A stretch of DNA of 64,000 nt. Origin: Azorinus chamasolen. Taxonomy: Eukaryota > Mollusca > Bivalvia > Cardiida > Solecurtidae. The position numbers were made by a program, and so were the translations under genes. The notes under the pieces are model-generated. The model made no database searches, was not told where the DNA came from, and was given only the letters and a program-made list of their open reading frames with translations. Location: NCBI GenBank assembly GCA_963576725.1, contig OY755240.1, positions 15,306,378 to 15,370,377 of the forward strand. Direction: 5' to 3'. Shown in pieces: positions 3,497 to 52,964 of the stretch. Positions within the stretch are counted from its first letter, which is position 1. The number at the start of each line of letters is the position of its first letter.

Positions 3497-3581
3497 TAGT
3501 AAGATCTGAAACGAGGCAAATTGTGTTGACGGAATACCTTATACGTTTGAGACCACGTCTTCTTCAGAACATCAGAGTGGC
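3497..3581 (-). CDS. Unit C exon 3 of secreted EF-hand gene family
   Basis: An 85-nt exon lies between an acceptor (ATAATAACAG, ending 3582) and a GTAAGT donor (3496-3491). After the split codon from exon 2 it reads HSDVLKKTWSQTYK, then about 13 more residues ending RFRSY. It aligns with exon 3 of units A and B but is one codon shorter. The missing codon is the first Cys of the RC(F/Y)RSC end, and the second Cys is changed to Tyr, so both conserved cysteines are lost. Retroelement fragments lie within about 25 bp on each side. The exon looks spliceable, but its gene's exon 4 is not in the window. Confidence 0.8.
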
Positions 3582-6500
3582 CTGTTATTATAAACAATTA
3601 AAAACGGCGAATGTACATGCATATCAAAATACACAAAGAGACGCACAGAGACATCACAAACAAACAATAGGGGAAGGTTGAAGTACCGTCTTGGAACGGT
3701 CAGTGACAATGGTAACTGGGCGTTTAAACCGTTTAAGGGCGCCAAACCTCGTGCTTATTCCATCCCCATCCTAAAAGACAAACCGTGTAAATAAACCTAT
3801 TCCCTCTCCGACTTATCTACAACAATCGCAATTAGAACATAGTATGAAAACGTCATGTCAAAAAATAATTACGAAGTTTGTAAATCACATCAACATATAA
3901 TTCAGGATGTGAAATACCGTGTCACAGGAGCGTCATAAGATTTCACTTCTGCTTGCAAGTAAGTGAGACATTTCGATAATGTTTGTCTTTGTTCTTAAAA
4001 ATGGTAATCAATCTATGTCGTTGCTATTTGCAAATCCTTAAGGTTAGGCTTCGTACATGGAGGCGTCTCCCAGCCATTCTAAGACTAACCACCATCCTAA
4101 AAGAATAAAGATGCCGGGCCTGTCTAACGAAGGTCGTACAATCAAACTTGTATGCTAATACAGGGACTGTTCGAAAAGTAATGACAATAGCTCTATTGTG
4201 TTCGGACAAGTCCCAAGTTCGTTTGGCCATTCTTTGTGAGCCCTCTGATCAGAGCCTGCACTGTTAGCGACTTCAGAACAATGTCTGTAACATATCCGTA
4301 GTTCCTAGTAAAAAAAATCATATTTTGGTTTCAAAATATCTGCATTGGATGTAAAAGGTATTTGGTTTTAAACGAATTACATTATTTATTTATTTATATA
4401 GTCTCATTGGAGGTTTATGAGTTGTTTACTTAAGGTACAAAGTCTGGTATATTACACTGTTCTTTTTTATACAAACATGGTACCTGTACATTTATGTGTA
4501 GATTATATCGTTTCAAATATTTATTTTTAATTCTTTCTCCCACATATACATTTAAACATATTTACAGAGTAGTTTCAGATCTAAAATATCCTAAAGAATA
4601 TGTTTCACTTTTCACTGCTACATTTAAAGATGATAAAAATACTGTACATATCAGTTAACACTACTATTGTCAGTGAAAATTAGTTATTTTCTATTTTTTA
4701 AACTATTTATTCAATAAAATATTCATCAAAAATACATGTATAGATAAACGGATAAAAGTTATAGAATAATAAGCTTATAAGAATAATTATTGATTTTGCA
4801 CATGATATAATGAGGAATATTAGTGTTTTGCTTTTCCCTTTGCTACTCGTAAAGAAGGATATGTCCTCATGTCTGTTCACAAAATAACTTCATCCATATA
4901 ATTTAGTCATTGTACGGATGTAAACCATTTCTTGGTCGACATGGGCATCAAGTTCAAAAACAAAGGTTTTCCAAATAAAAGGAACTACAGTGAAGCTTAC
5001 TTATAACGAAATCCTGGGGACCTTAATATTTATTTCGCTATATCCAAACTTTGTTATATCGATAAGACGAAATTTCGTTATAAATGTTTGGATATAGCGA
5101 ATTTCGTTATAGTATACCAAGGTTATGAAAGTTCTGATCCTGACCAGAAGCCACATTATAATTTAGCTACTGACCAGTCTACATGCATACAGCTGGGGTT
5201 GTCATGTGTTTGGTAATTTCATAGCATGGCTCTTATAAAATGTAAAGGAAAAGCAATTTCACACCAGTTATAAATAACAACATTGGTGAAATGAGTTGAC
5301 CATTTGCTTCCCTATATCAATGGCTCAGTGCAAAACTGACTCTATAGTTATTCTAGTGAAGAGAATGTCTTATATGCATGTAAGTGCACACTTCAATTAT
5401 TTATCACATTTATGTTTTTATTCCTGGTGTCGTGGTGATTCGTGTACCTTCAATCATTTTTCATAAATCTATAATATGTGCTTATCTATGTATCACGGCA
5501 TGGTGTATTGGTCTTACCATCGGATTTTGCCTATTTCGGTGCAGATTGTTCGAAAAATATCTTAGAATATAGTTATCTGCGGCTGCTTCAATGCAAAGTA
5601 TGAAGTTGCAACAAATATTCTGACAAACGTTTCTATTGGCCGAAATCAAAATATACGGTAGGAAATGAGAACATTCTTCCAATCAGATGCACGGTTACTA
5701 GTCGATTACGATTGCGACTGGTTTCAATCACGTTATCGAAATTGTTAAATAAAGCGGGATACCATTCTTCCATCAGATTCGTCCCTTTTGCATTCGGACT
5801 CAGTAGTATGTTTATGCCTCGCACGATGCCCACAATGTATATTTTATGCGCCGTTTTCATTGTTTGTGGGAATGATGCAATAGTGTGTCCTCGACAGAAA
5901 ACTTGACCATTAACAAAGATTGGGACATATGTACATACAGTGTGGTCAATCACTTTCATTAAGTTTCAAACTGCGACATTCAGTTGAGTTTGTAATAACC
6001 GAACTATTTTTCATAGAAATTTCGTTCTCGGGACAAGGAAATAACTTTGTCTTAGCCGAATTTTCGTTATAACCGATTTTGTATTAAGCAGGCAGATGTG
6101 AATAGAAACAAAGAAGGAAAAGATCGGGGAATTTGTTTTCTTTTGTATTATCCGGTGTTTCGTTATATTCGAGTTCGCTATAAGTGAGCTTCACTGTATG
6201 CCTTTTTTGCAAAGCTTCTACTTTTATAAAGAGCAAACAACCAACTAATGTCCCTCATTGTCATTAAATTAGTAGTTTTAATAATGCTATCAACACCAGA
6301 AGTGCTTCATTTCTACTGTCTCTTATTTAGCTATTTGTTGTAAAAATAAAGATAACTAATCATTGACTGTGTATTCCTGTTCTATACCCGACCTTTGCTC
6401 TTCTTTCTACTTCCTAGCTATGTCCTTCTAAAATCATATCAGCACCAGAAGACTAGCCTTTCGTACACTTGTATATTTGCATTTTACCAGCGTCTATACT

Positions 6501-9500
6501 TTATAACTTTGCTTAAGAAATAAACGCTATGCATCTCTCTAAAAAAATCAGGTAATGCCTATTAAGCAAATAACCAGGTTTACATATTGGTAAGTTTTGT
6601 TTTGCCGCAGCATTTACCCACATTACCGTACATATACAACGTTTTTTACTTGTTTCATATTTCTTGTGGTTAGCATATAAGCTGTTGCCGTAGATGTGGG
6701 GTGTGATGTTTAAATGATTTGCCTGATGAACTTTCAAGTACATATGCTTTATGTGGCTAAGACAAATCTGTGCAGATGAAAATACACAATCAAGGATAGT
6801 GGTATATCTTGAAAGTGTATGATCCTTCGAAAGCAACAATGGCACAAGAGAAACTTGCATACTCTGTCTTATTGAGTCTGGGGACCCGTGTCTTTTTTGA
6901 AAAGCTTCTATTTTTATCAAGAGCAAGCAACTAACTAATGCCCCTCATTGTCACGATTTTCACAGGTGAGAGCCATATATTAGTAAAAAAAGTATGTTCT
7001 TTATGAATCTTATATTTTATTAATATGCATGTAAACCTCCGTCTGTTCTGCCTATGCATCTAAATATGGAATTAAAATATCAAACGATGTATATCTCGCC
7101 GTTGCAAACTGTACAGAATGAACTATGTAATAACAGCAAACAGAGGAAACCGTGAGTACAGGAATTATATATGTTTGTATTAGAAAATAGGCACGGCGAA
7201 ACTAAGCGTTTAAGTGTCTTTATTCAAAGGATTACTGTGGTGTCGCTCCTTTACGAGAAAATGGGATAATTTTGTCAAATGCCAAAGATAAATATTGGAT
7301 TCTAAACCGACAATTGTTCTCTGTTTCTACCAATGATCCATATCCTAGTTTATCTGATCGAGGTCCTAGCTCTTATTCAAGTATGCCAGACATCCAATTT
7401 ACTGTAAATGGAGTCAAACTATTACTGGCAGACTTGGATTTCTACAAATGTTGAAATATTGTGGAAATGAAATAGCACCTAGTTAACTATTCTATTTAAT
7501 AAAAGTACAAATATGGTTCGTGCAGGAAACACCGGATATAGAACAAACAACCGCCAGAACAGCAACACAAGAAATTAGAGCAAATGTACATATTAAATAC
7601 CATATACATAAAGAATCGCACAAAGACAAAACAAGAGCATGTGAAACGAAAACATATTTAAGTGAAAATAACTGCATCAAACTATCGCTAGTGTACTCAA
7701 TGATTGAGCTGCAAACAGAGTAACTGTAGAAAAGTAATACGGAGTACGACAAAAACAGGAAAGTACAAATATCAGACGTCCTCTTTCCGTTTCCGCCAGC
7801 TTTTCAAATTTAGGCCGACAATAAAGATTTAGTACTCTATGAAGGCGACCTCTTAAATCCGGAAACGGAAGGAGGACGTTTTTGTCGTACCCTTTATAAC
7901 TTTTCTACAGTTACTCTGTTTGCAGCTCAATCCTTGAGTACACTAGCGATAGGTAGATACAGTTGCTTCACTTAAATATGTTTTCGTTTTACATGCACTT
8001 TACCATTGTATTTGCCATCGCAGTTGTTGTAGATTAGTCGGAGAGAGGATACGTTTATTTACACTGTTTTTCTGTTAGGATTGGAATTGAATAAGTGTGA
8101 GATTGGGCGCCCAAAAACCGGTTTAACCCCCGGTGACCTTTGTCACTGACCGTTCATTATAAGTCGTAGCCAATCTGTTTGAAATCTTATAAGTAAGACC
8201 AATATACTGATTTAAATTATAAGGTGTAGGCAAGCTAAGGTTCTTACACAGTAAATAATTTGCATATTTACATGTTTGATATATATGGTTATCATATAAC
8301 AGTTATTAAATCTACTGTTTAAAAAATCACAAACCTTATGATCTGTATTGGCAATTTGGAGGTAAAAACTAGAATTTTATAAGGGTAGCATTCATGGAAA
8401 TTGCACTTAATAATAGTCCTTTTGTGAAGGTCTTATTGGTAGTTTACTAAATTTAAAGGGGTTGTACAGTGAAACACTTCCAAACCGGACATTTAGTACA
8501 CAAAAAATTGGAGGTGTTATGGAAATTACTGCTCCATGTAAAGGGCTGTTTGTATGACGTTCATCTTGCATTAACCGTTTCCCTAATGGATATTTATGCG
8601 TGAATTGATAAAATCACATGACATTTTATTGATTAACTGTATTAGCCAAATACCGAATGATTAAATCAATATCATTATAAGCGCAAACAAAGCAGATCTT
8701 GATCAGATGGTTGTCTGCACGAGCCGTCTGGTCTGAGTTAACTCAGTTTACAAAACTGTTCGAATGCGTTTGTAGTAGGAAAGGTATGAACTGTGTTCTG
8801 TCTTAAATATTGACATTGATACTAATCAAACTGTGTGTTTAAACTGTTTTACTGTATTGTGTATGACCAACCTGTATTATCTGCATTTGCAGCAATGCAT
8901 GTTACCATCAGTATCTGCAAAAAAAAATGTGATTAAAGCTATCTTCTGCGAAATTCATTTCGAAAGACGTGTTTTTAACATTTTACAGTAACTCAAAACT
9001 TGTATCTAATACGTTGCTGTACCGGTCAGAACGTACTTGCTACACTCATTGGATATACACCTTTTATAAGAAACATTACAACAGTACAGACACTTACTAA
9101 TTTAAATGGGTTGGTACCTGATCAAGTGTTACGTAATATGCAAGGATGGATAACATATTATAACATGATAAATGAACAATTATGTACTTTATGACCAGAT
9201 ATGCAGTCGACAGCGACGATGCTTGTATTGGTCTACACTGTTTGAGTTGCACTTTGTAGTAGAGAACAACCCAGTTGCCTCTTTACCTGTTGAACATTCA
9301 TAGAACAAATAACTACATTATTAATGCTTATAGGTAAAATGAACAAGAAGTTTTACCTAGGTAAAACATTGCAACCATACCTATATAATCAAGAGCACAT
9401 AAACTGATCATACGGTTGTTACAAGACCCCGTTTGAAATAAATATAATGATAAAGGTTTGAAGAGGTGTCCCTCTCAGATAAAGGGTTTATAGAACAAAG

Positions 9501-9529
9501 TGTCTTACCAATAAGACCCCTGCCTTCAT
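3497..9529 (-). CDS. Unit C: partial secreted EF-hand family gene (exons 1-3)
   Basis: Three phase-compatible exons: 9529-9509 (MKAGVLL), 8914-8872 (ILMVTCIAANADNT plus one base) and 3581-3497. Joined, exons 1 and 2 give a typical secretory signal peptide with a likely cleavage site after AANA. Exon 2 ends with one base and exon 3 starts with two, so the frame is kept. Exon 3 ends TA, so the missing exon 4 must start with C or T to avoid a stop. The 5.3-kb intron 2 holds a 1.2-kb DNA transposon, an inverted pair of retroelement tails and another retroelement. An EF-hand exon is expected left of position 1. The gene may be functional or decaying; loss of the exon-3 cysteines argues for divergence. 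Confidence 0.7.
3600..3985 (-). mobile_element. Penelope-like fragment, RT C-terminus plus tail
   Basis: Minus-strand copy running from the RT C-terminal region (about 3870-3985; conserved TCTGTGACACGGTATTTCAC-like stretch) to the family-1 tail, with the hairpin relic near 3701-3718. It is cut off 3' within the TGTACATTTGC segment and abuts the splice-acceptor region of unit C exon 3. Confidence 0.8.
3990..4985. other. AT-rich intronic sequence
   Basis: This lies in the predicted intron 2 of unit C. I see no coding signal, only AT-rich sequence and one CTGATCAGAG-type motif near 4238 of the dispersed palindrome family. Confidence 0.4.
4988..6196. mobile_element. TIR DNA transposon, pogo/Tigger-like ends, TA target duplication
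   Basis: The element is flanked by TA on both sides (4986-4987 and 6197-6198). Its ends are inverted: CAGTGAAGCTTACTTATAAC at the left and, read from the right end inward, CAGTGAAGCTCACTTATAGC. About 24 bp pair with two mismatches. A sub-terminal inverted repeat (CGCTATATCCAAAC near 5036, reversed near 5086) and many CGTTATA motifs lie inside. The 1209-bp body has only short frames (for example 5633-5959 minus and 5712-5906 plus) with no DDE motif I recognise, so it is probably non-autonomous. The pogo/Tigger assignment rests on end sequence and TA target only. Confidence 0.8.
6810..6885 (+). repeat. Fragment of the ~240-bp interspersed repeat
   Basis: Matches the 5' third of the repeat seen complete near 38.6 and 42.75 kb: GATCCTTCGAAAGCAA, then AAGAGAAACTTGC and CTTATTGAGTCTGG. 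The internal CAGACTC...GAGTCTG hairpin is partly decayed. Confidence 0.6.
7495..7795 (-). mobile_element. Penelope-like tail, left arm of an inverted pair
   Basis: Minus-strand family-1 3' sequence (end motif TTTCCTGCACGAACCAT read on minus). At about 7640 it continues directly into the segment that normally lies upstream of the hairpin, so the hairpin block is deleted. It faces the plus-strand copy at 7800-8155. Confidence 0.75.
7800..8155 (+). mobile_element. Penelope-like tail, right arm of an inverted pair
   Basis: Plus-strand copy of the post-RT region, from the segment reading GAAGGCGACCTCTTAAATCC to the family-1 hairpin. It ends abruptly just after GTCACTGACCGTTC at about 8155. Confidence 0.8.
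8872..8914 (-). CDS. Unit C exon 2 (signal peptide core)
   Basis: A 43-nt exon between acceptor TTTTTTTGCAG and donor GTTGGT. It reads ILMVTCIAANADNT plus one base. It starts in phase 0, matching exon 1, and ends with one base, matching the two-base start of exon 3. Exon 2 has the same length in all three units. Confidence 0.8.
9509..9529 (-). CDS. Unit C exon 1 (translation start)
   Basis: ATG at 9529 opens seven codons (MKAGVLL) followed directly by a GTAAGA donor at 9508. An in-frame TAA lies six bases upstream of the ATG, so the start is well defined. The surrounding few hundred bases are conserved with unit B near 36 kb and more weakly with unit A near 52.95 kb. Confidence 0.8.
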
Positions 9530-9590
9530 CCTTTAAGTCCTGTTAGAGTTGATGCAATCACTGGTGCAACTGTTGTTTACAAAGTACAGC

Positions 9591-9596
9591 TTTAAA
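9591..9596 (-). promoter_or_regulatory. Candidate TATA-like box for unit C
   Basis: TTTAAA lies 62 bp upstream of the start codon. Unit B has the same motif at the same spacing (36068-36073) and unit A has TTATAG at equivalent spacing. Between box and ATG is a conserved GCACCAGTGATTGC / GTACCAGTGATTGC stretch that could contain the initiation site. This is inference from conservation and spacing. Confidence 0.45.
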
Positions 9597-9989
9597 CATT
9601 TACCTGATGAATATTCATATAATACATAAGGACCAATTACAAATAATTGTTCCAAACGACTACATGCACTTATGAACGAATGGGTGTTTGGCCTTGGCAG
9701 AGAAAGAAGAACCGTGTCTAAATTATCCCATAAGCAACTTAACAAAATCGGATTACATGGTTCTTCCTTTACAAACCGATCTGGATATACTATTTTACAA
9801 CCGCAGTACAATACGCCTCAGACAGACACACGTCTTTGATGTGCTGTCGTATCTAAATGAAAATCTACTGCTCGTCTAAATAAGATAATTGGCATTCTAC
9901 ATAATCTTAATTAAGACAACAATAATGATAGATATTTACTGATGGTAGATACTTGCTGAATTTCTGAGCTAATGCAGATTTACTAACTG

Positions 9990-11090: not shown

Positions 11091-11099
11091 GCAGGACAC

Positions 11100-12991: not shown

Positions 12992-13372
12992 TCAGTTGTT
13001 GAACAATTGATATTTGAACGCGAGGAAAATTCGATACCTTTTCTTTGATTCATCTTGTACAGTAACATACCCTATCGATGCCGCAATCCAATCAAATACC
13101 ATATTTCATGTATCACCAGGGAGTAAGACATCGAAATGTTGTTGGGTTTCCTCCATTCCAAAGCATAAGCACATGTATTCAAAGTAGAATTCCTCTACTG
13201 AGATGAATCTGTTTTTGACAGCATCAATATATTGCATTTCTAACGTTAGGTTTCCACAAGTGTGCTTTACCAGCGTTTCGCAGTTCTGACAGAATCTCCA
13301 CAAACTTCGTCTTTGGTAATTGCTGTACCATTTCCTAATATGGTGTTCAAATATATATTAACTGCAATCTGC
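12992..13372 (-). pseudogene. Unit B second exon 4 (E4'), decayed EF-hand exon
   Basis: A splice acceptor (CCATGTCAG, ending 13373) has the same phase as the intact exons 4. The reading then matches QGAVNVF as QIAVNIY. Frameshifts and a deletion follow. The middle is readable as KFVEILSELRNAGKAH in another frame, then GNLTLEMQYIDAVKNRFISVEEFY in a third frame (given in two frames of similarity to the intact exon). The EF-hand loop has lost its Gly (DAVKNRFISVEE). PGDDG is now PGDT-stop, and weak similarity continues to the end (RYRIF matching MYRLF) and a terminal stop at 12992. It cannot encode a full domain. Confidence 0.85.
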
Positions 13373-14235
13373 CTGACATGGAAAGGCGGGATATTATTAA
13401 CGGGGTTAATTCCAGTAACTTACTACAGACATGTCCGTATAACAACTAGTAATTTTAAAAAAAACCAATATTTTCGTGGCAAAAGCACTAGAATCAAATG
13501 TGGATTATTACATACCCATATAAAGCAAATTTACCGACAGTATATTTGCGTGTAGATGATTTGCCAACATAGTAGACCAACATTGACACAGATATGAGGA
13601 CGCCTATAGAAGTCGTTTGATGAATGCCTGCTCTCCATGCTATATGGAGACAGAACCTGCGTGGCCAAGTGGTTCAGTCTATGACTGAATATCACAGTCC
13701 CTTGCCGTCCTGATTCAAATCTCGGTCTAGGCATTTTAGATTTCTCTCGGCAGGAAACAATCCAAGTGGCTTGCGGTAGACTAGTGGTTCTACATGGCTG
13801 TTCTATGTACTGAAATTTCCCTCCATTTGTAGTTGGGTGGGTGGCCAATATGTAACATGAAAATGATTGCATGGATAATTATAGTATCGTTAAGGTACTA
13901 TGGGCACGACTAGTTACTTTTTACCTCAAACATTTCGCTCCATGATGTACATTGTTAATATATCAACCCTTCCACCTCACGCAAGAAGTTTTATTGTTAT
14001 AAAAAATAATAGAATGGTTTTATTCCTTGATCGGTTTCAATGAGTCAACATTTTACTTGACTGATATTCAATTAATACGTTTTACCATCATGCCATGAAT
14101 ACTTATCACATGATGTTATTTTTACAGAGTAATAAAATCAGATTTGTTAAGACTATAAACAAGCAGAATATATCCTGATTAGATGTCATCGGTAACCAGA
14201 CAGTGTTTGTATTGTATGTCTGTCCTCTATCAACT

Positions 14236-15316: not shown

Positions 15317-15701
15317 TTAGGTCGTTTTTGACACCTCGTAGACTTGATACATTTCACTTGGATAATATGCATCAGTAGCATATTTAACCAATTCTGCAAT
15401 ATAATCAGCAACTGGAATTCCATCATCTCCAGGGTAGTAAATCTTGAAGCCAATCTTGATTATATTCAGATCAAAGCCTAAACATAAGTATTCAGTGTAG
15501 TATTCCTCTCTAGAGATAAATCCGTTTTGGTTATAATCAAGATACTCTGTCCCCAACGTTATGTTTTTACGAAAGCTATTTACAAAATCGTCTTTGTTGC
15601 TTGTATATGCGTCTAACAGAAAATCAACAAATTTTGATTCTGTATATCTGTGTACCTCGTATCCCCATCTGGCATTCCGATATACATCAACTGCACCATG
15701 G
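15317..15701 (-). CDS. Exon 4 of secreted EF-hand protein (unit B)
   Basis: The exon follows a good acceptor (TTCGTTTCCGTTTCAG, ending 15702) and is open to a stop at 15317-15319, giving 127 residues. One base completes a codon begun by exon 3, then HGAVDVYRNARWG starts. A conserved N-glycosylation sequon (NIT in FRKNITLG) precedes a canonical EF-hand loop, DYNQNGFISREE, with Asp1, Asn3, Asn5, Gly6, Ile8 and Glu12. A second, degenerate EF-like loop follows (YYPGDDGIPVADYI, one residue short). AATAAA on the minus strand about 15 bp past the stop could be a polyadenylation signal. Role: extracellular calcium binding is inferred. It aligns along its length with exon 4 of unit A. Its upstream exons are probably those at 30-36 kb. 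Confidence 0.85.
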
Positions 15702-27700: not shown

Positions 27701-30700
27701 AGTCATTAGATTGGCATCTCCTCAAAAGTTGATACTTTTAATAAAAATATATTTTTCAATCATCATTACTGTGATGTACTGATGCGGATAACACAAACGA
27801 AATATATATACAACTCAAATGATCCGAGACACCAGCCTACATACGATCACTTTAGATTACTTAATAATGTTTTGGTCAGGTCATTTCATTTCAAATCATT
27901 TTATGATCATTTGTGATACCGAAATCATTACTGATGAATAGGCAAGTTAGCATGATGATTTTGATCAGCCTTAATCCATCTAGGTTTTATTTGAATGTGA
28001 TTTACATTGTCATATCATACTTGAAAATTTAAAAACAGTCTGTTATTTGTATCTTAATGGTTAATTTGTTTTCATACCAGCAGGGTATCGCATGCAAACA
28101 ACAAAGCAATTACCGGATACAGACATAATCTTTTAATATAATACCAGCTAAATTATAAACTGAAAGCTATTAAATGTATTTCGATGTAGCCCAAACTTGT
28201 TTCGGTATACTTGGAGCAAACAGGATAAATTAAGAATTCATTTCTACAATTTTTTAAATAATATTTCTTTGTTTTGTTTGAATTAAAAACCATTGTATTT
28301 TTATATATTTGGTAATAGATTGATAATGTTAGCCCCAGCTTCTCAAGACCCTTTGATTTAACGTTATTACATTTCTATGTGTTGACGCTGTCAGGACGTG
28401 CATTTGTTATGGAAACTCAATAAAATGCAGATAGCCCATAGATGTGCGTTTTCACATAGTATCACCTAGATTACTCTCCTTGAGTTTTTTTATATTAGAT
28501 CATATCTCTATGCATTTGGAGCATGACATATGCTTTCACCTTTTCCTTGTCTTGTTCTCTCAGTTCGTTTGATTTTCACATTTATATTCATAAATATGCT
28601 AATAAAGCTATTAACAACATGCTATTCTAAATCAAATACCAGTGTATTTATTTATTTGTTTGGTAACAAGTTGACACATAATGTTATCTTCTCTATGCGT
28701 TGACGCTATCCGGACGTACGTTTGCTATGGATACGCAAAAATCCGATGAGAATAAAAAAGACACAGAGACACGATTTTGTTTTATATAAAAGTACAAAAA
28801 TGAGCCATGCAGGAAACACCACATACAGAACAAACAGTCGCCCGAACAGCAACACAAGGAAACAGCAAATGTACATAACTATAAAAACAACAAGAGACAC
28901 ACAAAGACAAAACAAACATGCAATAGGGGGAAGATGGAAGTACCGCCTTGGAACTGTCAGTGACAAAAGTCACTGGGGGGGGGGGGGGTAAACCGGTTTA
29001 TGGGCGCCCAACCTCACACTTATTAATACTGTCCATGAGGATGTTTTATGTACAAAAACAGCATCACGGGCGATTTCAGATTAAGTCTTGACCATCTTCT
29101 AGTTTTTTTCTGCATGTTTTAGTTTTCACATTAATATTCATGAATATAGAAATGAGATAAATAGCATAACTATACATTTGTATTTGTAATTGAGGACCAG
29201 TATCTTACCTTTAATTTGGCACCAGTTTCAAACTCTCGGTGTCCCCAATAGCATATATATACAACGTTTTAGCTTTTACCCACGTTCGTTGTCCAGACCA
29301 ATGTTTGCCATGGAAACGGTAGAAATAGCCATGGCAGGAATTAGCGTTTTCATGGGTACATTTTTACCTCAATTTAGCAGACCCTTCCAAACACTCTGTT
29401 AGCCATGAAACGGTAACCCTACCTGGGGTATATGAAATACCAGAATATTCCGTGTCCATGTACTATAGTTCGATTTCGAGCGCTGAGCCTTGACTGCACT
29501 TTTCTATTTATAGAAGTTGCAACCATTCTAATTTATGGGTAAGTGGACAATGATTGTGACACGAAGCTCGTAGTAATCGTGCTGAATTGGTATATACAGT
29601 GAAACTCCGCTAATACGACCATCTAAACGATATATAATTCTGGATGCTAGATGCATGTGTTAGCTTAATGCAGGACAAAAGCAATGCAGAAAGCTTTCTG
29701 CATTACTTTTGTCCTGCATTAAGCTACAACCTGCTTATAAGGAAAACAATGTATATTCATTAAGTGGTCGCATTAGAGGAGTTCTACTGTACATGCTTAT
29801 TACAGGTCTGTATAACCACAGGTAACTCCGGAACAAATATATGGTTTGTGACGCGTTTTACCTCCACGGGTGGACTCGTCCTAAAGGTTACAGCTCACGG
29901 GTCAAAATCGAACTGTACCTGTTAAAACATAATTATGAATTCACTGTGTCTTACATTGCTATTCAGGAGGTAATTAATAAACATGACAATACCAACTAAA
30001 TAATGTACATGAACAATGTATGTATACTGTGGTTTCTCTATTTATTTCTCAGGTACTTACTCACAAGATCTGTAACAACGATTGTTTTGGCGATGATTGA
30101 GGAGCAGATACGTTTGACGCCACTTCTCCTTCATTATGTCTAAGGGATCTGTTATTATATACATGATTATAGAAGTCTCGTAACCGAACCATTATATATA
30201 TGAGATCATAATGTTTAATACTTTATGACTAGAATTGCAACATACTGAAATAATACTTTGCCATCAGAACGAACCACTGTATTCTCGTCATATTACGGTC
30301 AATATCTGATCGGCGTTCTATTGTTTTCTGTTACAAATCAAATAAATTCGCAATGATATATACATTTCCTGGTGTGTCTCATAAACCTCATCTAAAGAAG
30401 TCTCTTTTGTACAATTGAGGGCCATTCCAAAGTCAAAAGCAGTATTGTATATCTATTGTATATTTTTCATTGACCTGGTTAGATAATCATGTGGATCCTA
30501 CCGGTTAGTGGTTTTATATTCATTGTATATCTATTGCATATCTTTCATTCACCGGGTGGATAGTCATGTGGTTCCTACCGATTAGTGATTTTATATTCAT
30601 TGTATATCTATTACATATATTTCATTGACTGGATGGATCATCATGCAGTTCCTTCCGGTTTTATTTCATATCTATTGTATATCTTTTGTATATCCTTTAT

Positions 30701-36599: not shown

Positions 36600-38470
36600 G
36601 CTTCTTCAATGTTCTAACTTTATATTAAAACTTTGTTGTTGTTTTTTTAAAAAATGACAGCACTAGGGTCAAGCTGTGTAGATCCTTATAAGCCGATTGA
36701 CAATCCCAATCGAATCTAGATCCAAACTGTTTGCAAATGTCATCAATACGCGGTTGTCAGGATAAGGGTTAGAGCAGACAGGACACATACACTTGTCTTA
36801 TTTATTAGGCATCTTGCAAACGTATACAGTTTCTAGTCTGTATAAATACGAATGGCATGTGAAGTGGTCTCCTCGAAATGACTATTTGGAATAAACTGTG
36901 CACACCTTGATAAGAGGTAAAACAATAGGAACCCTTCGTCTGAATGTGCATGATTTGCCTTTGTCCTGATTAAGTAATAGTCTAATACATGCCTGCGCGC
37001 TTTTATCGCCTTTGAAAACTATAAAGACACACAGTCTGTTCTGTATATCTGTTCTTGTGTATAATAATTATGTTAAAGATATACTTCTACAGTTCCTGGT
37101 ATGATACAATGTCATTGGGTCGAATTGAATTTCTAACAGTTTCATGGTGTTCTTTGATCCTTTGAATGTTAATAGAGTAAATGGTTGAAGAAGAAAATGC
37201 ACACATTGAGAAAGTGTATTATGTCGAAGCGGGATGCCATTCAAACCGCAATCTGGTCATATCAACTACATTAATAAGTGTAGTAACGAGTAATGCATTA
37301 ACTAGTTGCCTCGAATCACTACAATACAATCGGATGCTGGATAAGTCTCACCGAAAACTTAGAAAGCTAATCGTTTTCTTCAAAAATACGTCTTTGACTC
37401 ATTTTCAAATACAGAAGACGAGTCCTACAGGAGCCGCCGTCTGAACAGGCTCTATTATGTTTGCCTAAGCAACTATGTAGAACGTACATGTAAAATACTG
37501 ACTAAATAATTTGAAAGAGCTTGGGTCTCAAAGAGACTATGAGCGTTGCCGTGTAAATTCGGAACATTGCTGTTTGTTTGGGTTAAATAGACATTCTTAA
37601 GATTAAGGCGGTAGGACGACCTCAACAATAAACTATTAAATATGGAAAGAATGACTTTCTTCGGAATTGTATTGCTTAACTCTATATGGAACTCTTAAAC
37701 ACTCGAGGCAATCCATTCCTTTCTGTGATTCAATATCATACATTGCCAATGCCTAAAAATAGCTAGACACCGGAATCACTTTATCTCGAGGGTAGAAAAT
37801 GTCTCCATTTGATTGTCTCCATTTTAATGTCCAAGCAGACGTATATAGTATGATATAACTTCTCAGACGGGTTTTGTTAGCATCTAAGACCTATACACTT
37901 AACGTGCTTTCCATGTGTATAAAAATGCGGCACCATTGTTAAAGGACGGACACATAATGAAACAAACCATTTCCTCACCACGCGTTCCCACGCAAGACAG
38001 TTTAATTGGAAAGCTGTATCATTATTTCTAATGAATCCTATCTAAGATATGTGCCTCTTTATAACACTATTTACTAATTTTCTAAAAACATGCCTTACTT
38101 TTAACGTTATTGTAATTATTACAAACCCAGTTGGACGGCTCTGCCTTTTTGGAATTATATAGATCTTAAGCTGCAGTTTTGACATAGAACCAAACAATGA
38201 CATCAATACATATTTATGGGTTAAATTTGCAAGGAAGTTTATTCCATATGTAGGCATCACATTCCCACCCACCTTCTACCATACACTTGCTCACAATTAC
38301 GTACGCACATATATCACATATATTTGGATATAGTGTATCTGAATAAGGATATGGCAAACAATAAGTAGTAAATTTGCATGTTTTCTCTTTTAATAGTGCT
38401 ACTCTTGTTTTCGAGGGTTGTTCTACTGACACAACTTATATACTCCGCAATAGCGGCAGGTGTTAAGTGC
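36600..38470. other. Non-coding upstream flank, partly duplicated
   Basis: 36940-37160 matches 11200-11400 upstream of unit C, and 36690-36830 matches 53620-53720 upstream of unit A (GCAGGATAAGGGTTAGA / GTCAGGATAAGGGTTAGA block). The duplication therefore includes the 5' flank. The open frame 37181-37444 has no recognisable product. Confidence 0.5.
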
Positions 38471-44199: not shown

Positions 44200-44605
44200 T
44201 TTTATTTCAAGGATTGCCGTCAAATTCTTGTAATAAAGTGACTGTGTTAAGCTAGGAATGTGAGGTTCGGACGTCCGTAAACCGGTTCAAACTCCAGAGG
44301 TGATTTTGCTACTGACCATTCAAAGGTGGTACTCTCTTTGTCACCCTTACCTTTGTTTGACTTGTGTTTTTGTACTTGTGCTTTTGTTCATGTTTGGAAT
44401 GTTTATCTCTGGTGCTTGTGTGTTTGTGTTTTATGTGTTCATCTCGTGTGTGTGTGCGTGTGTTTGAGTATGCGGTTGTGTGTGTGGGGGTGTGTGGTCG
44501 TGTGTGTGTGTATGTGTGTGGCATGCTGACCATCGATGATTTGGTGGTGGTTGCGTCTTGTATGTGGCTTTGCCTGCTTGACGATACTGCTTTTGCATTT
44601 ACCTA
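44200..44605 (+). mobile_element. Family-2 Penelope-like 3' tail
   Basis: TAAACCGGTTCAAACTCC, hairpin region near 44292-44312 (one stem mismatch), a GT-rich microsatellite at about 44448-44521 and end GTGGCTTTGCCTGCTTGAC near 44565. Confidence 0.82.
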
Positions 44606-44609
44606 TAAT

Positions 44610-47590
44610 CAAGGTAGATAGATGATCGCCTTCAATATATTTAATTGTACTAACCTTTCGTTAAGCATATGGCTTAATACAGACAATACGGCACTATGTC
44701 TAGCGGTAGCTTTAGTGAGTCTGTGGTGGAGCTTCAAACCGTTTGAATCAATACAAAAAGCTAAGTAACTCGGTAGCTCATGAGGATTCAAACTGTTTCA
44801 CATTTTACCTAATTATTATTTATATAACGACAATATGAATATATATTTTATGTATTTCTACAATTACATTCCGAAAAAAGCGCTATTTCACTCAGCTTTT
44901 AAAACTTTATAAACAAGCTGATGGTACCAAAATAATGAGCTGTTTGTCCGGGCATACTCAGAGTTAAATGGCACCGAAATGTGTCTGTAAGGTAAATGAC
45001 TGACATTTGTGGTAATAAGATACGACTGTAGGGTTTGCTTTCTTCAAATGTTCTCCGATTCTGTGTAGGATTCGTATGTGTGGCTAATCACGCTTCATCT
45101 GCTTCAAACCTGTTAGGAAATCAGATAGGTTGCACGTGACATTATAAGATTTCAGATAGGTTAGCGTAATACATATATTCTTACTTATATACTATTTATG
45201 TTATTCCATATTAAAGTTTGAAAACGATTCACTTTTCATATTAAAGGAACACAAGAACGGAATTGTATGATATGTTTAATAAACCGTGCTTTGTACTGGT
45301 TCAATAACTGTGCAATCTGAGCAGAAACCGATGCAGGTATTATATACTTGCCTAGGTCAACGCCATGCGCTCGCACATGTATCCAGACAGAAACGTAACG
45401 TATATCAGTCATACATCTCCATAAATTGCTTTGTGAAATCATCCTAATGAATTTGCTATACGTACATGCGATTTAAGATTACTGTTCTCTAAAGGTAAAC
45501 GATTTAGATCTAGCGTCCTGTGGTGAATTATATTAAATTTTGGAACTTATCAAGTTTTGCATGTTCAGGGGACGTGCAAGCAAACCATATGCAATGGGAT
45601 CGAGGATGTATCTATACAAATGAGCGACGAACTTCCCAGAATGTTTTATGAATTATGAACCCAGACAATGTGCAATACGTTAAACAATTTTATATAGTCC
45701 AGAAACAACAAACAAGCATAGGCATTTTAACGTATACCTTGATTGGATGGTTTAATTATTTTGGTTATGGAATATGGAGTTTGTGTTTCAAAGAGACCCC
45801 CTTTATGCCGCGTAAACTAAGGACAATACTGTTTGTTGGTATCAAATGTACATGGTAAAGAACGCACCATGTACAGAATATTTAACATGACAACATAGTC
45901 GATGCAATGAATATATTTAACACGTACGCGCGAGAAATCGCGAGTTTGCCATAACCTTATTCAGCCGAGATAACGCACGTTTTCTTATTCCCTGTTTTTA
46001 GATGGAAAGCAGGGATCTGTCCATTAACGTGTATAAGTGGGCTTGAACACGTGCAATATTTGTCTGCTAATATTTCATTTTTCTATTTAAATTTCTATAT
46101 CCGGATGCCTACACCTTTAAAAGTGCGTTAAAGATGTATGCTTCGCAAATTTCCGCAAAGTTTGCCTTTCAAACTGACTTCAGAATCGGGATCCATGTAC
46201 CTTAACACTCATTTAACACTGAACAGCACGGTTAGTAAATGGTTGATTATTTTAAAAAGATTAGAAAAATGGTTTGCCACCGACACCAACGAAATAGCAT
46301 TCGCCATTGTCCAGAATTTGTTGTCAGAGTCAAATTTAAATACTGGAAATAATCATTCGATGTATATGTAGGTCAACAACCAGTATGATAACAACCTAAG
46401 TAATATGCAATGTGTTGTTCCGAATTAGAATCGCAGTCATGCAGAACTTTGCAGATGTCCGCTGCTTTCCGTACACAATCCCCTTTTCTAAAAAGGAGGC
46501 TCCTTTTAAAGAATTTAGATAACGATAATATTTTCTATCGGAAAATTGGTTGTAAGCATTATTTTCATTGTATGTATACGTGTTCTGGTGTTGATCGATT
46601 AATACGAAAAATGAGCATACTTCTTTAATATATCTTGTGAAATATCAAATTGAATACTAATGTTACTACATAAAATTATTGCAATAAAAACGAGACTGAA
46701 GCCGAGTGGTATACTATTTTTTATGATCGGTGATCACAGTACACCATGGGTATAATGCTATACGCACTATTCGTCACTATTCGGAAAATTCGAACTATGC
46801 CGATAATTAATCACACGAAAAGTTTCCACTGTCGGCAAGGTCAAAATCAAAACACACACACCGACGGATATGGGGCAATAAAAATTCCGCTCCACAAAGT
46901 AAATATAATCCGAAGAAGGAGTAGAAAAAATATCAATCACTTGACTGAGTTAATCAACCAAATTAATCAATAAAGCGAATCATGTCTGGGAGTTCATTCA
47001 TTAACAATGAAACAGGATCTCGCTTGAACGCTTATCATGTTTGTTTATCAATATCCAAACTCTCTGAAGTGATATGAAAAGAACAATTCATTCTTAAGCG
47101 CCAATCAGTTTAGATCTTGATGAAATGACAAGCTATGAGGCGTCTCATCTACATCAAAACTGGTTAAAAAGATAACAATCAAGGAAACTGCATTTGTATA
47201 GACTCAGATCAGTAACTATTAGATCTTTATTAATGCATACAAATGCAAATGAAACATACCAAGAAAAGTAAATGAATTGGGGTAGTGTAAACATTGTAGT
47301 CCCAGTTTAGCAGCCACTTCTCCTATGCGACGTCTGATCAAGATCTACACTGTTTGCAGGGTCATAGGAATACATAAAGTCGATTCTGGTGATTTTCAAA
47401 CTGTGAATCAGATGTTGCATGCGAGATGCTGCTGATTTGAGACTACCCTCTTTGAAATTCTACAAATCCTCAAATGTCCTGGAGCCCGGCTCAAATGTAT
47501 GATCAAACGGAAAATGTTTAAAGAAAAAACATAGCAACTATGTGTTAGAATTTCTTGATAGGAAACAGTTGTATTCTTTTAATTCAGTGG
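44610..47590. other. AT-rich sequence without recognised features
   Basis: Only short frames are present (for example 46138-46371 and 45655-45858) with no motif I can name. I see no clear copy of the repeats listed elsewhere. Confidence 0.35.
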
Positions 47591-47600
47591 ACATACATAA

Positions 47601-47820
47601 TTATTCGGTATAATATTCCTCTGCAGGGATGAATCCGTTCCGGTCACCATCAATGTACCGTACCCAAAATGTTATATTTCCACGAATGTTGTCTGTAAAC
47701 ACCTTAATGTTATTTATGTACATGTATACGTTTAGCAGACTTTCGAAAATTCTATCCTGATAATTAACTGTGCAGGTTTCCCAACGTGTTTCCCAATATA
47801 CATTACCAATGTCAGCGGGG
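47601..47820 (-). pseudogene. Unit A second exon 4 (E4'), truncated by a stop
   Basis: Acceptor TCTGAATTGTAG ends at 47821, in the same phase as the intact exon 4. The frame reads PADIGNVYWETRWE, then IFESLLNVYMY, NIRGNITFWVRYIDGDRN and GFIPAEEYYTE before TAA at 47603-47601. The EF-hand loop DGDRNGFIPAEE is fully canonical and the NIT sequon is kept. The stop replaces the Tyr of EYLCLGF, and LCM follows it before similarity fades, so the second half is lost. It lies about 0.8 kb downstream of the intact exon 4. It could be a dead duplicate or a shortened alternative last exon. Confidence 0.8.
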
Positions 47821-48029
47821 CTACAATTCAGATACATGTACTACGCTTATTGACACGGTACCTTCTCGTGATCAACAAAATGTGTAAAGTTTGTCCATAT
47901 TAAACTTATGCAAAATAAATATTGTTTACACGTCCCTGTATTTATAGGCAGTAGTAATTAATATTCGACATTTAATATACATGCATTTGTTTTTATGTTG
48001 GTTACCTAGTAGTGTCCCGTGCCTTATCA

Positions 48030-48260
48030 ATTTACTCTATTCAAAATTCTAGATTTTACACTATTTAAAATCCTCAAAAAACATTATCAGACTGATTTTG
48101 TAATAACAATGCGTTGCCTATCAAATCTGTTTGAACGCATTTGCAAACGGCATAGACACGGATAAGACGTCGTCTACCAAAGAAGGAGTGGTCTAGTGTC
48201 TTATGGGATAAATATACATGTATATGGTTCTTAAGATTCTGACATGGCCAAATTGTTCTG
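48030..48260. repeat. Duplicated segment (copy of 43070-43290)
   Basis: Contains CAGACTGATTTTGTAATAAC, CGCATTTGCAAACGGCATAG and AAGATTCTGACATGGCCAAA in the same order as 43070-43290. Confidence 0.65.
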
Positions 48261-48586
48261 TTCTCAAATAATTCAGCCTAGATTTAATCGCCAACAGACA
48301 TGAGTTTATGTGCTATTATATCTGATTGAGCTTAGCAGCACTTACTGTAGTATACACATACTCGTGGTTCGAACTGATTTAATAATGTTTCTTTAATAAT
48401 TTTACAAAATATATATTTGCTCAGAACAGAACAGATGTTGGCGTGTTACCATAAATCTGCACATATTAATAACATGAAGTTAATTTAGAATAGGACGACC
48501 TTGACTAATAAATAACTAAAGACATAGATTTCAACATATTGTACTACGAATGTTCAAACGTATGCAACATTTGTCTCGTGTGGTTT

Positions 48587-48989
48587 TTATTCTGCATTGC
48601 TGCTCAAATTGTGTTCGATTTCCTCGAAGAGTCGATACATTTCATTTGTTTCATTTGCGCCAGTACCATACTGTACCAATGAGGCAATGTGGTCATATAC
48701 CGGAATTCCGTCATCTCCAGGGTGGTGAACACCGAAGGCCTGTTTGGTTCTCTCTATTCCAAAGCCTAAACATAAGTATTCAACGTAGAATTCCTCTGCA
48801 GAGATAAATTCGTTGTGGTCAGCATCGAGATACAGTACCCCTAACGTTATGTTTTTACGGAAGCTGTTCACAAACGCTTCTTTGTTTTTTGTGTATTCGC
48901 CTGTCAGACTCTCAAGAAATTTCGATTTTGTTGATATATATACATCGTGTCCCCATATGTCGTTCCAGAATACATTAACTGCACCCTGG
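48587..48989 (-). CDS. Exon 4 of secreted EF-hand protein (unit A)
   Basis: Acceptor TACTCTCTATTGCAG ends at 48990. One base plus 133 codons run to TAA at 48589-48587. Start QGAVNVFWNDIWGHD; the sequon NIT (SFRKNITLG) is followed by the EF-hand loop DADHNEFISAEE, in which the usual Gly6 is Glu. Then come FYVEYLCLGFG, a degenerate loop HHPGDDGIPVYD and a C-terminus with MYRLFEEIEH. An ATG at 49015 is in frame but lies across the acceptor, in intron sequence without counterpart in other copies, so I did not take it as the start. Confidence 0.88.
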
Positions 48990-51900
48990 CTGCAATAGAG
49001 AGTAAATATGTTCATACATGTGCAGATGTTGTGCTAAAATATTACACATGTAGTGACATTCCGCCTTTATCTGGGAAGTATTCTTGTAAGACATAATGAC
49101 ACACTGATCAATTGAGAGTGTATAATATATCAACAGAGCATGCTTTAGCCATAAAAAACAACAGCAACAAATATGTGCATAAATCCTAAAGATTGCAAAA
49201 CATACTCTGATCAGATAGTATATGTAATCAAACGGGTACTTATATGCGCATTGTGATCTTGCCATTCTCTATTTGCAAATGTGTCAAAAGGTATCTCACT
49301 CAGTGAATGTGTAAAATGGTATTTGATAATAATTTGAAAAGATATTGAAGGCGGAGAAAATACATTCTACTCTGAATGTTTTAAACTTCGAACAACGTCT
49401 AGTTTGTTATATTGGTTTGCACATAGTATGTTGATTTCTGAGGATTACATTTTGACTGCAGATAAGAAATCGAGTGACCCAGTGTTTAAACTAGATTTAA
49501 TGTGTTTAACTCCCTCCCATTCCGCCGGCTCCTCTCCCCTTAATGCACCCTTGTAGCTCAGAGTACAAAGAGTGTAATGCAGTACTCTAAATGAACCGTG
49601 GAACTATTTCATGTTCATTATGAATAATCATTAATGTTTAGTAACTATCAAATTCATCTTATTTTAAGATCGGCATCATTGCTAAGATAGTTGCATGATA
49701 GTACTTAACTATTATACACCTAATATGTATAATTATGCAGCTTGGAGCCAAATCCGACTCATGTTCCATTATATTGTTTGTCGTGAAGTGTTTTATTTAG
49801 TGGTGATATATTCATTGAAATCAGTGGTGTTACGAAAAGTATTTGTTACCATAGTAACCACATGTTGGGCTCAGATTGGTCGAAACTTAGATATTGTTCG
49901 ATGTAATTGAGATATTGTTCGGTGTTGATGATAATAATTATATATGTCCGGATATTTCGGTACTTCAACTTGATTTGAAATAATTTAGACAATATCGATT
50001 GCCATGACAAACGAATGTTCTGATTCACAGGTTCTGATTCGTCTCAATTCAGATATTGTTCGATTTTACAGCAATTGGCATGTATGGGTATTTTGGTACA
50101 CCGACCTCATCAAATATGGTTTGCAAGAAACTGGCGTGGTAGCGGCATGATTGCAACTGAAAGGTCACGATTTATGTATTCTTAGATAGTGTTTCGAATT
50201 GGATAAAATTTATTATTATAATTTGCTCATCGATACCTTTGACCTGTTTCGTTTGGATGGCATTCTATAACGGATTTCGTTACAATTACATCTTATGAGT
50301 AATATTTACTACGCTGTATATTTTTCATGAGGCACTATAAGTATTTCAAATAAAGTTACAAGTGTGACATTGGTATGCATTCCCTTTATACGCAGTTCTC
50401 AAGTACTTACTCGCAAGATCTAAAACACCGAGGCGAACTGTGTTTATGGAGTAGCGTATACGTTTGAGACCACGTCTCCTTCAAAACGTCAGAGGGGCCT
50501 GTGGTTATAAACAGAACTATGACAACTAATGCACCGTCACATACGTCACATTTATAAGATCAGATAAATATATGTTATTACATGTTGCTTTCTATTTATA
50601 TGCTGAAACATGAAATTGAGTCCGAAAGAAACGTGTTTGTTATATTAAGACCGTTAGCTTATCGGCGCTCTGATTATAGACGACACAATATTCTGTTTTG
50701 TTAATCACATAGAAATCGCAAAGTGTAAAACTATAGCTGATAGAGAAACATTTGCAAACGGATCTGTCAATACTGCCGTCTGAAGCCGACATAACAAATA
50801 CAACACTTCAGATGCTCTTCCTTGAAAAATGACGATCAACATGTATGATGGTATGACATAAATGATATCAAAAAATATATTCCTGAAAAAATGGCAATAA
50901 ACATGTATAATGGTATGACATTGACGATTTCATGTTTTTTAAATGAATATAAACATATGTTTATGATTCGTGAGTTTTCAGTTTGCAAATGTTTTCTTTT
51001 TCTTAAAGTGTTACGCGGATTTTATATAAATAATGTGACATAGCAAAATTCTAGTCTCAGTTTCTAGAGCGAAAGTAGGGTTTGACTGAGGTTTCGTTTT
51101 ACGACACTCCTATTATAAGAACGGTTTGGAAGGAGAACACATAAATTAATCCATATTCAAGACAACATGCCAGCGTTGGGCATTTATTTAAGATAGCCCC
51201 TGACCTTTAAACATGTTTGAAACACCCATAGTATATTTTAAACTCTTTTCTGGATGCTGTCTATGCCATCAAATGTAAAATGGCTAATCTGATATATCAG
51301 GTAAATGGTTAAAATATTGATCCTGTTGTTAACTAACATAACTAACATATATACACATATTTGGCAGATGACAGTCACGTATTGTTCATGTGCGTATAAA
51401 TGTAACAGTTGTTAGTAGATTTTGCCTGTTTAAAGTAGCTATCTAGGAGCTGTTCCGTGTAGGAGCAGTTTGATAAGAATCTGATTTAATTGTTTATACA
51501 ATATACCAATTCTGAAGCTACTTAATTTGTCTTATTGACTAGTATTATATAAAACTATTTAATGATTAATTCAATATTCCTAATGGTTGGAGTCTACTTA
51601 GTACTAATGCCTAGTAAAGTTGTATGGATCCGCATGCCTGATTACCCCAAAAACAGACCGATATTTAGTGCTTGCTCAGTGCAAGTGACAACCTTAATGA
51701 TTAGCAAATCAGTTTATATGTTGTTATAAATTAAGTTAGCTTCTAATGACACAGAGATACATCATCCCGATCAAGTACAAAACACAATGACACGGCAGGA
51801 AAAATAATTAGTCAAAAACATCTATTTGGGAAAAGGTCATATTTACACAATATTTCAAATTCACTGTTTATTGTTCGTCAGTAACAATTAAAAGTACACA

Positions 51901-52964
51901 AATGAGTCATGCAGGAAACACCACATACAGAACAAACACTGGTACTCTGTTGCTTATAATTGGTTACATTTGCATGCATGTTTGGTCTCATCATAATCCA
52001 AACTAATTTATGCATTGTAATTGGTATGAAATAATATTAAACATTGACATGCTATGAAGACAACAGCTTTTGTGGAAGTCATGTCATTATATAGGGATCT
52101 TGCTATGCATCTGTCCTCCTCCATTAATCCTTTCACTGATGAACATTTATGCGTGATATTTCTGTATTAAGGTATATTATTTCAAATGAATTATTAGTTT
52201 AGACAAACTTGTAGGATCATATTTATGTTAACTGTATAAGTGAATCGACCTATCCTTCACAAGTGACTTGGGTATATTCTGGTTGCATTTGCGTGAAAAT
52301 GTGTTTATATCTATGGAATAACTAACCTGCTGTCTGTCTAATAGATTAATATTAGTACGAATTTGAATATCTGGTACAGAACTCAGATTTATTGTAGCTA
52401 CTGTTACTGACCTCTTTGGTCTGAGCCTGTACAAATGCTCGTCAACAACAGAATCTGCGAAAATAAGATATGCTCGTCAACAACAGAATCTGCGAAAATA
52501 AGATGTGATTACATATGTACGTTACGACTATCATTTCAAAGTGGTTCAACATGTTCAACAAAGTTATCATATATGCTTGAAATGTCTAATACTGTTGAAC
52601 TTCGATATCTCCAAATCAGATTACTCGAACTTCGGATTAGTTCAAAGTAAAATGTCCACTTGTTACAATTCAGAAATCTTCTAAACATATCACTAGGAAT
52701 ATCTTTAAAATCATGTAACAGTTTACGCATGTCGAAGGTAATGCTAAATGCTTCTTTTCATGCCCTATATTTATGTTAGGCTTATGTATTCTGAAAGGCT
52801 GAAACTATGAAATAGTATCTCCTAAAACATCAGACAGAATGGCTACTTCAGGAGTCAGTCCTCTAATAGGGATATAGTCTGCAAACACATTTAAACATTT
52901 GTCAGGCAATGAAACTATGTATAGTAGAATGTCTTACCAATAAGAGTACTAACTTCATCCTCAT
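48587..52964 (-). CDS. Unit A: complete secreted EF-hand family gene (4 exons)
   Basis: Exons: 52958-52938 (MKLVLLL; an in-frame ATG at 52964 would add MR), 52454-52412 (ILLLTSICTGSDQR plus one base), 50498-50411 (GPSDVLKETWSQTYTLLH... ending RCFRSC plus GA) and 48989-48587. Junction phases 0, 1 and 2 match throughout. The product of about 184 residues has a signal peptide with likely cleavage near CTG/S, a short region with two cysteines, a conserved N-glycosylation sequon and a single clear EF-hand. It is predicted to be secreted and to bind calcium; a shell, plasma or mucus role would be guesswork. Introns are short (0.5, 1.9 and 1.4 kb) and nearly free of transposons, unlike units B and C. 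I do not recognise a named family. Confidence 0.82.
49020..50390. other. Intron 3 of unit A
   Basis: Non-coding. It holds part of the flank shared with 15.9-16.05 kb (49190-49330). No transposon is recognised. Confidence 0.5.
50411..50498 (-). CDS. Unit A exon 3
   Basis: 88 nt between acceptor TGTTTATAACCACAG and donor GTAAGT. It reads PSDVLKETWSQTYTLL and on to SPRCFRSC after the split Gly codon. Two cysteines five residues apart, counted inclusively (CFRSC), are shared with unit B. Confidence 0.85.
50520..52400. other. Intron 2 of unit A
   Basis: Non-coding. The only recognisable insertion is a roughly 55-bp fragment of a family-1 tail at 51893-51945 (minus, GAGTCATGCAGGAAACACCA). Confidence 0.5.
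52412..52454 (-). CDS. Unit A exon 2 (signal peptide core)
   Basis: A 43-nt exon with acceptor CTTATTTTCGCAG and donor GTCAGT, reading ILLLTSICTGSDQR plus one base. The acceptor and first half of the exon are duplicated just upstream (52471-52505). Using that distal copy would shift the frame into a TGA, so only the proximal acceptor gives the protein. Confidence 0.82.
52436..52505. repeat. 35-bp tandem duplication of splice acceptor and exon 2 start
   Basis: TGCTCGTCAACAACAGAATC followed by TGCGAAAATAAGATA occurs twice in direct succession, with one difference at the last base. Both copies carry a CAG acceptor on the minus strand. Confidence 0.9.
52938..52964 (-). CDS. Unit A exon 1 (translation start)
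   Basis: ATG at 52958 (or 52964) opens MKLVLLL, followed by a GTAAGA donor at 52937. The start at 52958 aligns with units B and C. The flanking GTCTTACCAATAAGAG and GGTACAAATGCAGG are conserved. Confidence 0.8.

Follow-up and report, generated by a model that had tools for sequence, protein, structure and literature searches.

Small secreted EF-hand proteins are known from the shells and mantle of molluscs, including EFCB1 and EFCB2 of Lottia (PMC4094399), SMP5 of abalone (PMC10741955), and the products of EF-hand genes of Pinctada (PMC3120837). These proteins are small and several carry signal peptides; further Lottia entries are 43-90% identical to EFCB2 (PMC4094399), and SMP5 is an Asp-rich protein of 134 amino acids with three EF-hands (PMC10741955). 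The mytimycin precursors of mussels are also secreted, occur in many isoforms, and carry the EF-hand on an exon of its own; a Cys-rich antimicrobial peptide in them precedes a dibasic site (PMC8004829). Here we describe a family of small genes, each predicted to encode a secreted protein with a single conserved EF-hand loop, in another bivalve, Azorinus chamasolen. The analysis started from a stretch of 64,000 nucleotides, the window, at positions 15306378-15370377 of contig OY755240.1 (C6) in assembly GCA_963576725.1, a genome of 1,723,440,353 bases (1.72 Gb) in 137 contigs. The family resembles the molluscan shell proteins in manner of working and not in membership, and SMP5 is set apart by its length and its three EF-hands. 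None of EFCB1, EFCB2, SMP5, or the Pinctada EF-hand proteins surfaced in protein searches with the window copies, no direct comparison being made. A link to mytimycin was rejected on Cys content: the two complete genes of the window and six readings from another contig lack an antimicrobial peptide of this kind and have three conserved Cys downstream of the leader.

The sarcoplasmic calcium-binding protein (SCP) is a muscle protein of cytosolic location. Bivalve SCPs, both that of Pinctada fucata (PDB 9l5m) and those encoded by the host genome, share with the family the co-linear order over EF-hands 2 to 4 (EF2-EF4), the EF3 loop, the GIPxxD stretch, and both intron phases, and the SCP entering helix of EF1, DYLxxKWxxWY, is kept in family members of contig C16. 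Unlike SCP, the family has a predicted signal peptide on two extra exons, a lost EF1 loop, a shortened EF1-EF2 link, three further conserved Cys, and an N-glycosylation motif where SCP has Cys. The two also differ in copy number: exon 4 of the family was found at 145 places, whereas SCP is represented by two genes, two SCP-like genes, and one distant match on contig C2. We propose with considerable confidence a tandemly amplified family, of which the predicted secreted product is likely derived from SCP with loss of the EF1 loop and retention of EF3.

On the minus strand of the window, genes A and C are complete and a third gene, B, is represented by exons 1-3; exon 4 occurs five times, intact in A and C and decayed in three further copies. 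Gene A (52958-48587) gives a stop-free reading of 184 amino acids beginning MKLVLLLILLLTSICTGSDQRGPSDVLKETW, and gene C (36006-15317) one of 178 amino acids beginning MKAVVLLIPMLTCIVANTDYHDPLDIMKEKW. The two are 53% identical, and both consist of exons of 21, 43, 88, and then 403 (A) or 385 nt (C), with intron phases 0, 1, and 2; the match of exon 4 to exon 4 within the window reached E 2.9e-42. In gene A, exon 1 (52938..52958) holds seven codons and a phase-0 donor, with another in-frame ATG at 52964, and exon 2 (52412..52454, 43 nt) holds the remainder of the predicted signal peptide and a phase-1 donor. Exon 3 (50411..50498, 88 nt) likely corresponds to the first SCP coding exon and carries the EF1 entering helix, without its loop, and a CxxxC motif; exon 4 with the stop (48587..48989), the counterpart of the second, carries a remnant of EF2 together with EF3 and EF4. 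The EF3 loop DADHNEFISAEE lies at 48791..48826 and the N-glycosylation motif NIT at 48845..48853. Gene C has the same order, exon 1 at 35986..36006, exon 2 at 33856..33898 (43 nt), exon 3 at 30061..30148 (88 nt), and exon 4 with the stop at 15317..15701, the last preceded by a 14.4-kb intron containing repeated sequence; its EF3 loop DYNQNGFISREE is at 15503..15538 and its NIT at 15557..15565.

Most of these elements had been recognized in the first-pass annotation of the window. The junctions that it proposed for gene A (52938/52454, 52412/50498, and 50411/48989) all have GT..AG borders and matching phases, and the 184-residue spliced product that it predicted reads through without a stop. 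Its three sets of exons 1-3 correspond to A, C (36006/33898/30148), and B (9529/8914/3581), with exon 2 of 43 nt in every set and exon 3 of 88, 88, and 85 nt, in agreement with the lengths claimed, and the NxT motif and EF-hand loop were located as described, as NIT and the EF3 loop of A and C. Recurrence of exon 4 also held, but the count of four had to be raised to five.

Chance similarity was controlled with 60 dinucleotide-shuffled windows, using the exons of gene A as queries against the other copies. Exon 1 scored 38.3 and 32.6 bits (best shuffled 26.8), exon 3 scored 102 and 69.7 bits (28.3), and exon 4 scored 265, 168, 91.1, and 46.8 bits (32.6). Exon 2 alone fell below the best score in the 60 shuffled windows (25.4 vs. 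29.7), and its support comes from a position scan and from recovery on contig C16 instead. In the scan of a 5.8-kb interval in gene C, exon 2 matched at 38 of 64 letters against 30 for the runner-up; in the C16 stretch it was recovered 16 times at E 1e-3 or better, in 13 cases as 43 nt bordered by AG and GT. Exon 1 gave eight matches there, all with ATG, 21 nt, and GT. In a substitution-only simulation, an exon 4 under no constraint remained free of stops on both branches with a probability of about 0.006.

The tandem amplification of small, predicted-secreted, one-EF-hand genes that had been read from the window proved to be of larger scale than the window shows. With exon 4 of gene C as query, 142 genome matches were obtained at E 1e-3 or better (150 of 155 candidates scored), and with an exon 4 from C16, 139 matches (150 of 160 scored), of which three were additional. 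Together the two lists make 145 places on ten contigs, with fragments and decayed copies counted in; a few pairs among them are near-identical and possibly assembly duplicates. At a gap of 400 kb, the 142 places form 24 groups, singletons included, and 125 of them belong to groups of at least three. The largest group, at C16:17.52-17.94 Mb, holds 35 places on a single strand, followed by the group surrounding the window (C6:14.97-15.70 Mb, 23 places) and those at C13:21.95-22.29 Mb (16) and C15:10.57-10.74 Mb (13). An exon-3 query gave 57 places from 124 candidates, and 56 of these have an exon 4 on the same strand within 15 kb downstream, at a median distance of 1.5 kb. The four-exon layout is found again in 200 kb of C16, which hold 18 exon-4 pieces and 11 exons 3; six of the 18 give clean complete models, for example MKDVISLFLLLTCIRVNADNEGASDYLMSKWHDGYTV...RRCFRTC...SLSESQYMEYMKNEY...ISEEEYYTEFLCLGFGLDLIKNLFD.

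Sequence fetched from the genome yielded 93 exon-4-like hits, and 78 of them are open through to the stop codon. In a tree of these 78 exons, which has few columns relative to its rows and leaves seven rows ungrouped, the clusters are kept together, with eight label changes for eight groups (minimum seven) as against a shuffle mean of 38.4, pointing to amplification mainly by local duplication with occasional dispersal. Two pairs of exons 4 have equal or near-equal matches, C19:32895426 and C79:19579, near-identical in the tree, and C5:90354916 and C5:90443590, of equal score and inverted; both may be assembly duplicates, which would slightly lower the count.

The calcium ligands of the EF3 loop are retained in most of the 78 open exons (D1 in 77, D3 in 72, N5 in 66, S9 in 75, and E12 in 77), whereas the canonical EF1 loop of the DVNHDGKISIED type is absent from all 14 exons 3 that were read, three in the window and 11 on C16, and the EF1-EF2 link is shortened around the join of exons 3 and 4. 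Exons 1 and 2 encode hydrophobic leaders, as judged by hydropathy and inspection, and are thus predicted to form a signal peptide. The Asn of NIT in genes A and C falls in the column occupied by Cys in 63 of 63 SCP rows. Three other Cys are characteristic of the family: exon 3 contributes two, in its RRCxRTC stretch, and exon 4 contributes one, in LCLGF, the latter Cys being present in 75 of the 78 exons. Both exons were read in nine genes: eight have all three Cys and gene B has none, its reading remaining open although the three are lost (RFRSY and YLSSDF, at 3497-3581 of the window and C6:15301850-15302359). This single case suggests that the three Cys function jointly, for example in disulfides. 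The exon-4 peptides are acidic, with a median pI of 4.4 and a range of 4.1-7.0.

The family identity, which the first-pass annotation had left open, is supported as that of an SCP derivative because profile comparisons, an SCP-guided model, and the intron phases of the host SCP genes agree. A joint profile of A and C matched a single PDB entry significantly, the P. fucata SCP 9l5m (E 8.1e-5), the next EF-hand protein standing at 0.51. Against a profile of 68 SCP-type proteins, gene A scored 33.8 bits and gene C 31.9 bits, while the best of 1000 shuffles reached 7.1. A single comparison of the 78-row family profile with the SCP profile gave a probability of 98.3 and E 1.2e-14, and a Mercenaria SCP as lone query found family members at E 1.1e-8 and weaker. 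Single copies are 17-28% identical to the SCPs listed, and the GIP(V/I)xD stretch is common to the family and the P. fucata SCP. In the SCP-guided model of exon 4, the SCP fold is seen over EF2-EF4, with fold-level neighbours 8-24% identical in the rows listed; an AlphaFold2 model of gene A exon 4 built from two rows was discarded (pLDDT 38).

The host genome carries SCP genes at C13:60.28-60.30 Mb, with two coding exons for residues 1-34 and 34-180, the long exon being 66-69% identical to a Mercenaria mercenaria SCP. In both of the two genes, the coding intron is in phase 2 (AG|G or AG|A of Arg34) and an acceptor-like AG stands 5 nt upstream of the ATG in the first coding exon; the phases of this intron and this AG are those of family introns 3 and 2. 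Family exon 3 holds the SCP entering helix, NDYLIAKWKLWY in SCP and PSDYLIAKWRVWY in a C16 member; it ends in phase 2, and its start phase equals that which the SCP acceptor would have in the same frame, two codons nearer the Asp. An exon-3 profile matched 63 of the 68 SCPs with a best score of 19.3 bits, and the highest score among 680 shuffled SCPs was 4.8 bits. Matches scoring above 8 bits numbered 31, and 29 of these begin at SCP residues 2-4. Exons 3 and 4 thus likely correspond to the two SCP coding exons, with exons 1 and 2 adding the predicted signal peptide, and the parsimonious history would be one in which the first coding exon of SCP was joined to two new upstream leader exons. Two SCP-like genes (C13:60337440 and C12:3063549) are 35% and 32% identical to the Mercenaria SCP, and the EF3 loop of both, DVN(H/Q)DGFISEEE, is by eye nearer to the family loop than ordinary SCP loops are; these genes are possible relatives of the family ancestor.

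Several points weigh against this proposal. The members of the SCP profile were collected with a profile that contained A and C beside 9l5m, and the structure model of exon 4 leans on SCP rows. The single exons 3 of the window are weakly SCP-like, the score of A being reached by 23 of 400 shuffles, that of B by 65, and that of C by 8. The N-glycosylation motif occupies the exact column in 40 of the 78 exons and lies within three residues of it in 49, and SCP ancestry may account for the acidic pI. Stops were found within the matched stretch in 17 of 142 places with the gene C query and in 24 of 139 with the C16 query, which gave longer matches, and 12 of the 18 exon-4 pieces of C16 are without a clean complete model under the rules applied, 11 lacking an exon and one a clean acceptor. 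The ratio of nonsynonymous to synonymous substitution (dN/dS) between A and C is 0.71 with a bootstrap interval of 0.45-1.16, compatible with neutrality, and the differences between the two genes are spread nearly evenly over the codon positions (53, 49, and 57). Splicing, secretion, calcium binding, and function are all predictions.

The proposed derivation from SCP would have started when one copy of an SCP gene acquired two new leader exons by splicing via the acceptor-like AG 5 nt before the start codon, followed by loss of that start codon. The EF1 loop would then have decayed to the RRCxRTC-type stretch, an N-glycosylation motif would have arisen in place of a Cys conserved in SCP, and the gene would have multiplied locally and spread to ten contigs, with many copies decaying. 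Calcium is millimolar in seawater, in body fluids, and outside cells. Since only one loop is conserved and extracellular calcium is millimolar, the single EF-hand of the secreted product would be permanently loaded, serving as a structural staple and not as a sensor in an acidic, often N-glycosylated protein. As our best guess, which we hold with somewhat less than even confidence, the protein would serve shell formation in the calcium-rich mantle or extrapallial fluid, a site favoured since the shells and mantle of molluscs are known to contain secreted EF-hand proteins, which in Lottia form a paralogue group. In its fullest and distinctly tentative form, the proposal is that a muscle calcium buffer was made extracellular by leader exons on a pre-existing acceptor and amplified to about 145 loci, forming an extracellular binding repertoire, stapled by calcium, that annotated proteomes miss because three of its four exons measure 21-88 nt.

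The main rival places the family among secreted repertoires for binding ligands or microbes, in innate immunity or in the carriage of small hydrophobic molecules, where the SCP scaffold would provide variable surfaces or a cavity and where copy number and turnover would serve diversity. The 145 places, their clustering, their decay, and their fairly fast change are in line with such a role, as are the reported tandem expansion of C1q-domain proteins in bivalves (PMC6835236) and the binding of small molecules by SCP-fold proteins of marine invertebrates (PMC5754374). General diversifying selection was not seen, however, with dN/dS below 1 in 57 of 60 family pairs, and we consider this role conceivable but doubtful.

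It is considerably less probable that the array is mostly a graveyard of duplicated copies and fragments with few or no expressed genes. Three of the five exons 4 of the window are decayed: that at 13004..13384 has in-frame stops and a 14-nt deletion, that at 47575..47826 has a stop and is truncated, and 37702..37911 is a fragment absent from both genome-wide match lists. In addition, internal repeats cover 37% of the window, and the stops among the matches and the A-C interval that includes 1 would be expected of such an array. On the other side, 125 of the 142 matched stretches are stop-free, the EF3 ligands are retained in 66-77 of the 78 open exons, and the C16 stretch again shows the splice sites and the exons of 43 and 88 nt. 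The median dN/dS over 60 family pairs of 60-97% identity, which are not independent, is 0.57, with three pairs above 1.

Convergent EF-hand likeness, or descent from another EF-hand group (calmodulin-like, SPARC, or a mytimycin extension), would fit the 17-28% identity to the SCPs listed and the lack of a Pfam match above cut-off for single copies, but is very improbable in view of SCP as the sole significant PDB match of the A and C profile, the profile-profile E of 1.2e-14, the GIP(V/I)xD stretch shared with P. fucata SCP, and the agreement of intron phases with SCP genes.

SCP itself is known; what appears new is an SCP-derived and predicted-secreted form with one conserved EF-hand loop in very many copies. 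When the window copies, and not the C16-type members, were compared with 5.8 billion proteins, no match was found at E 1 or better among the 96 and 391 candidates scored, a candidate being required to share a five-residue word and to fall in a set length range; no Pfam family rose above its cut-off. In this sense the family is hidden, as the first-pass annotation had put it, but only to the window copies by themselves: a joint profile with the 9l5m row retrieved SCP-type proteins, and those alone, from the 5.8 billion, so that the collection does contain bivalve proteomes. The literature search gave no recognisable report of a secreted, amplified SCP family among the matches listed, most subscription papers lying outside its coverage. 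If the proposal is true, bivalve secretomes, shell and immune proteins included, are under-annotated where the first exons of genes measure 21 and 43 nt and the introns are long, and a route from an intracellular calcium buffer to a secreted protein can be traced within one genome, in which the parent-type gene, the correspondence of exons, the intron phases, and the residues lost and gained can all be read. As many members have an intact EF3 loop, calcium binding, glycosylation, and the role of the three Cys are directly testable, with gene B, which lacks the three Cys, as a natural control.

Gene B consists in the window of exon 1 (9509..9529), exon 2 (8872..8914, 43 nt), and exon 3 (3497..3581, 85 nt, both Cys lost). 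The first two are C-like and lie, flanks included, inside alignments with gene C of 592 and 244 columns, respectively, while exon 3 is A-like. The next same-strand match to exon 4 begins beyond the window, at C6:15302276, and extends toward lower coordinates; it completes a reading of 171 amino acids, clusters with gene A in the tree, and is likely the exon 4 of gene B. Because exons 1 and 2 resemble C whereas exon 3 and the candidate exon 4 resemble A, gene B would be on this reading a mosaic of a C head and an A tail. Exon 3 occupies a 122-nt gap between two stretches (3221-3474 and 3597-3832) that belong to a single dispersed repeat with further copies in the window, and repeat-mediated exchange could explain the mosaic. 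A 25-nt match at 4261-4237, between exons 2 and 3 of gene B, weakly resembles exon 2 of gene A. It was rejected as exon 2 of gene B for its broken donor and in-frame stop, a better exon 2 being present at 8914-8872, and is possibly a decayed A-like exon 2.

In gene A, the acceptor and the opening bases of exon 2 are present twice owing to a perfect tandem duplication of 35 nt at 52435-52504 (2.0 copies, 100% match). The frame is preserved from the downstream acceptor only; the upstream copy was rejected, as it runs into a stop. The duplication looks very recent, polymorphic, or a matter of assembly. In gene C, intron 3 of 14.4 kb contains two 2.2-kb copies (17416-19637 and 23481-25706) that are 96% identical and carry long open reading frames (ORFs) that resemble a Penelope-like reverse transcriptase. 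A Pfam search with six other ORFs of the window (starts 17949, 20020, 2284, 706, 23197, and 58152), including that at 17949-19127, gave no match at E 0.01. About 300 nt upstream of exon 3 of gene C, a 77-nt unit is tandemly repeated in about 4.9 copies (30444-30822).

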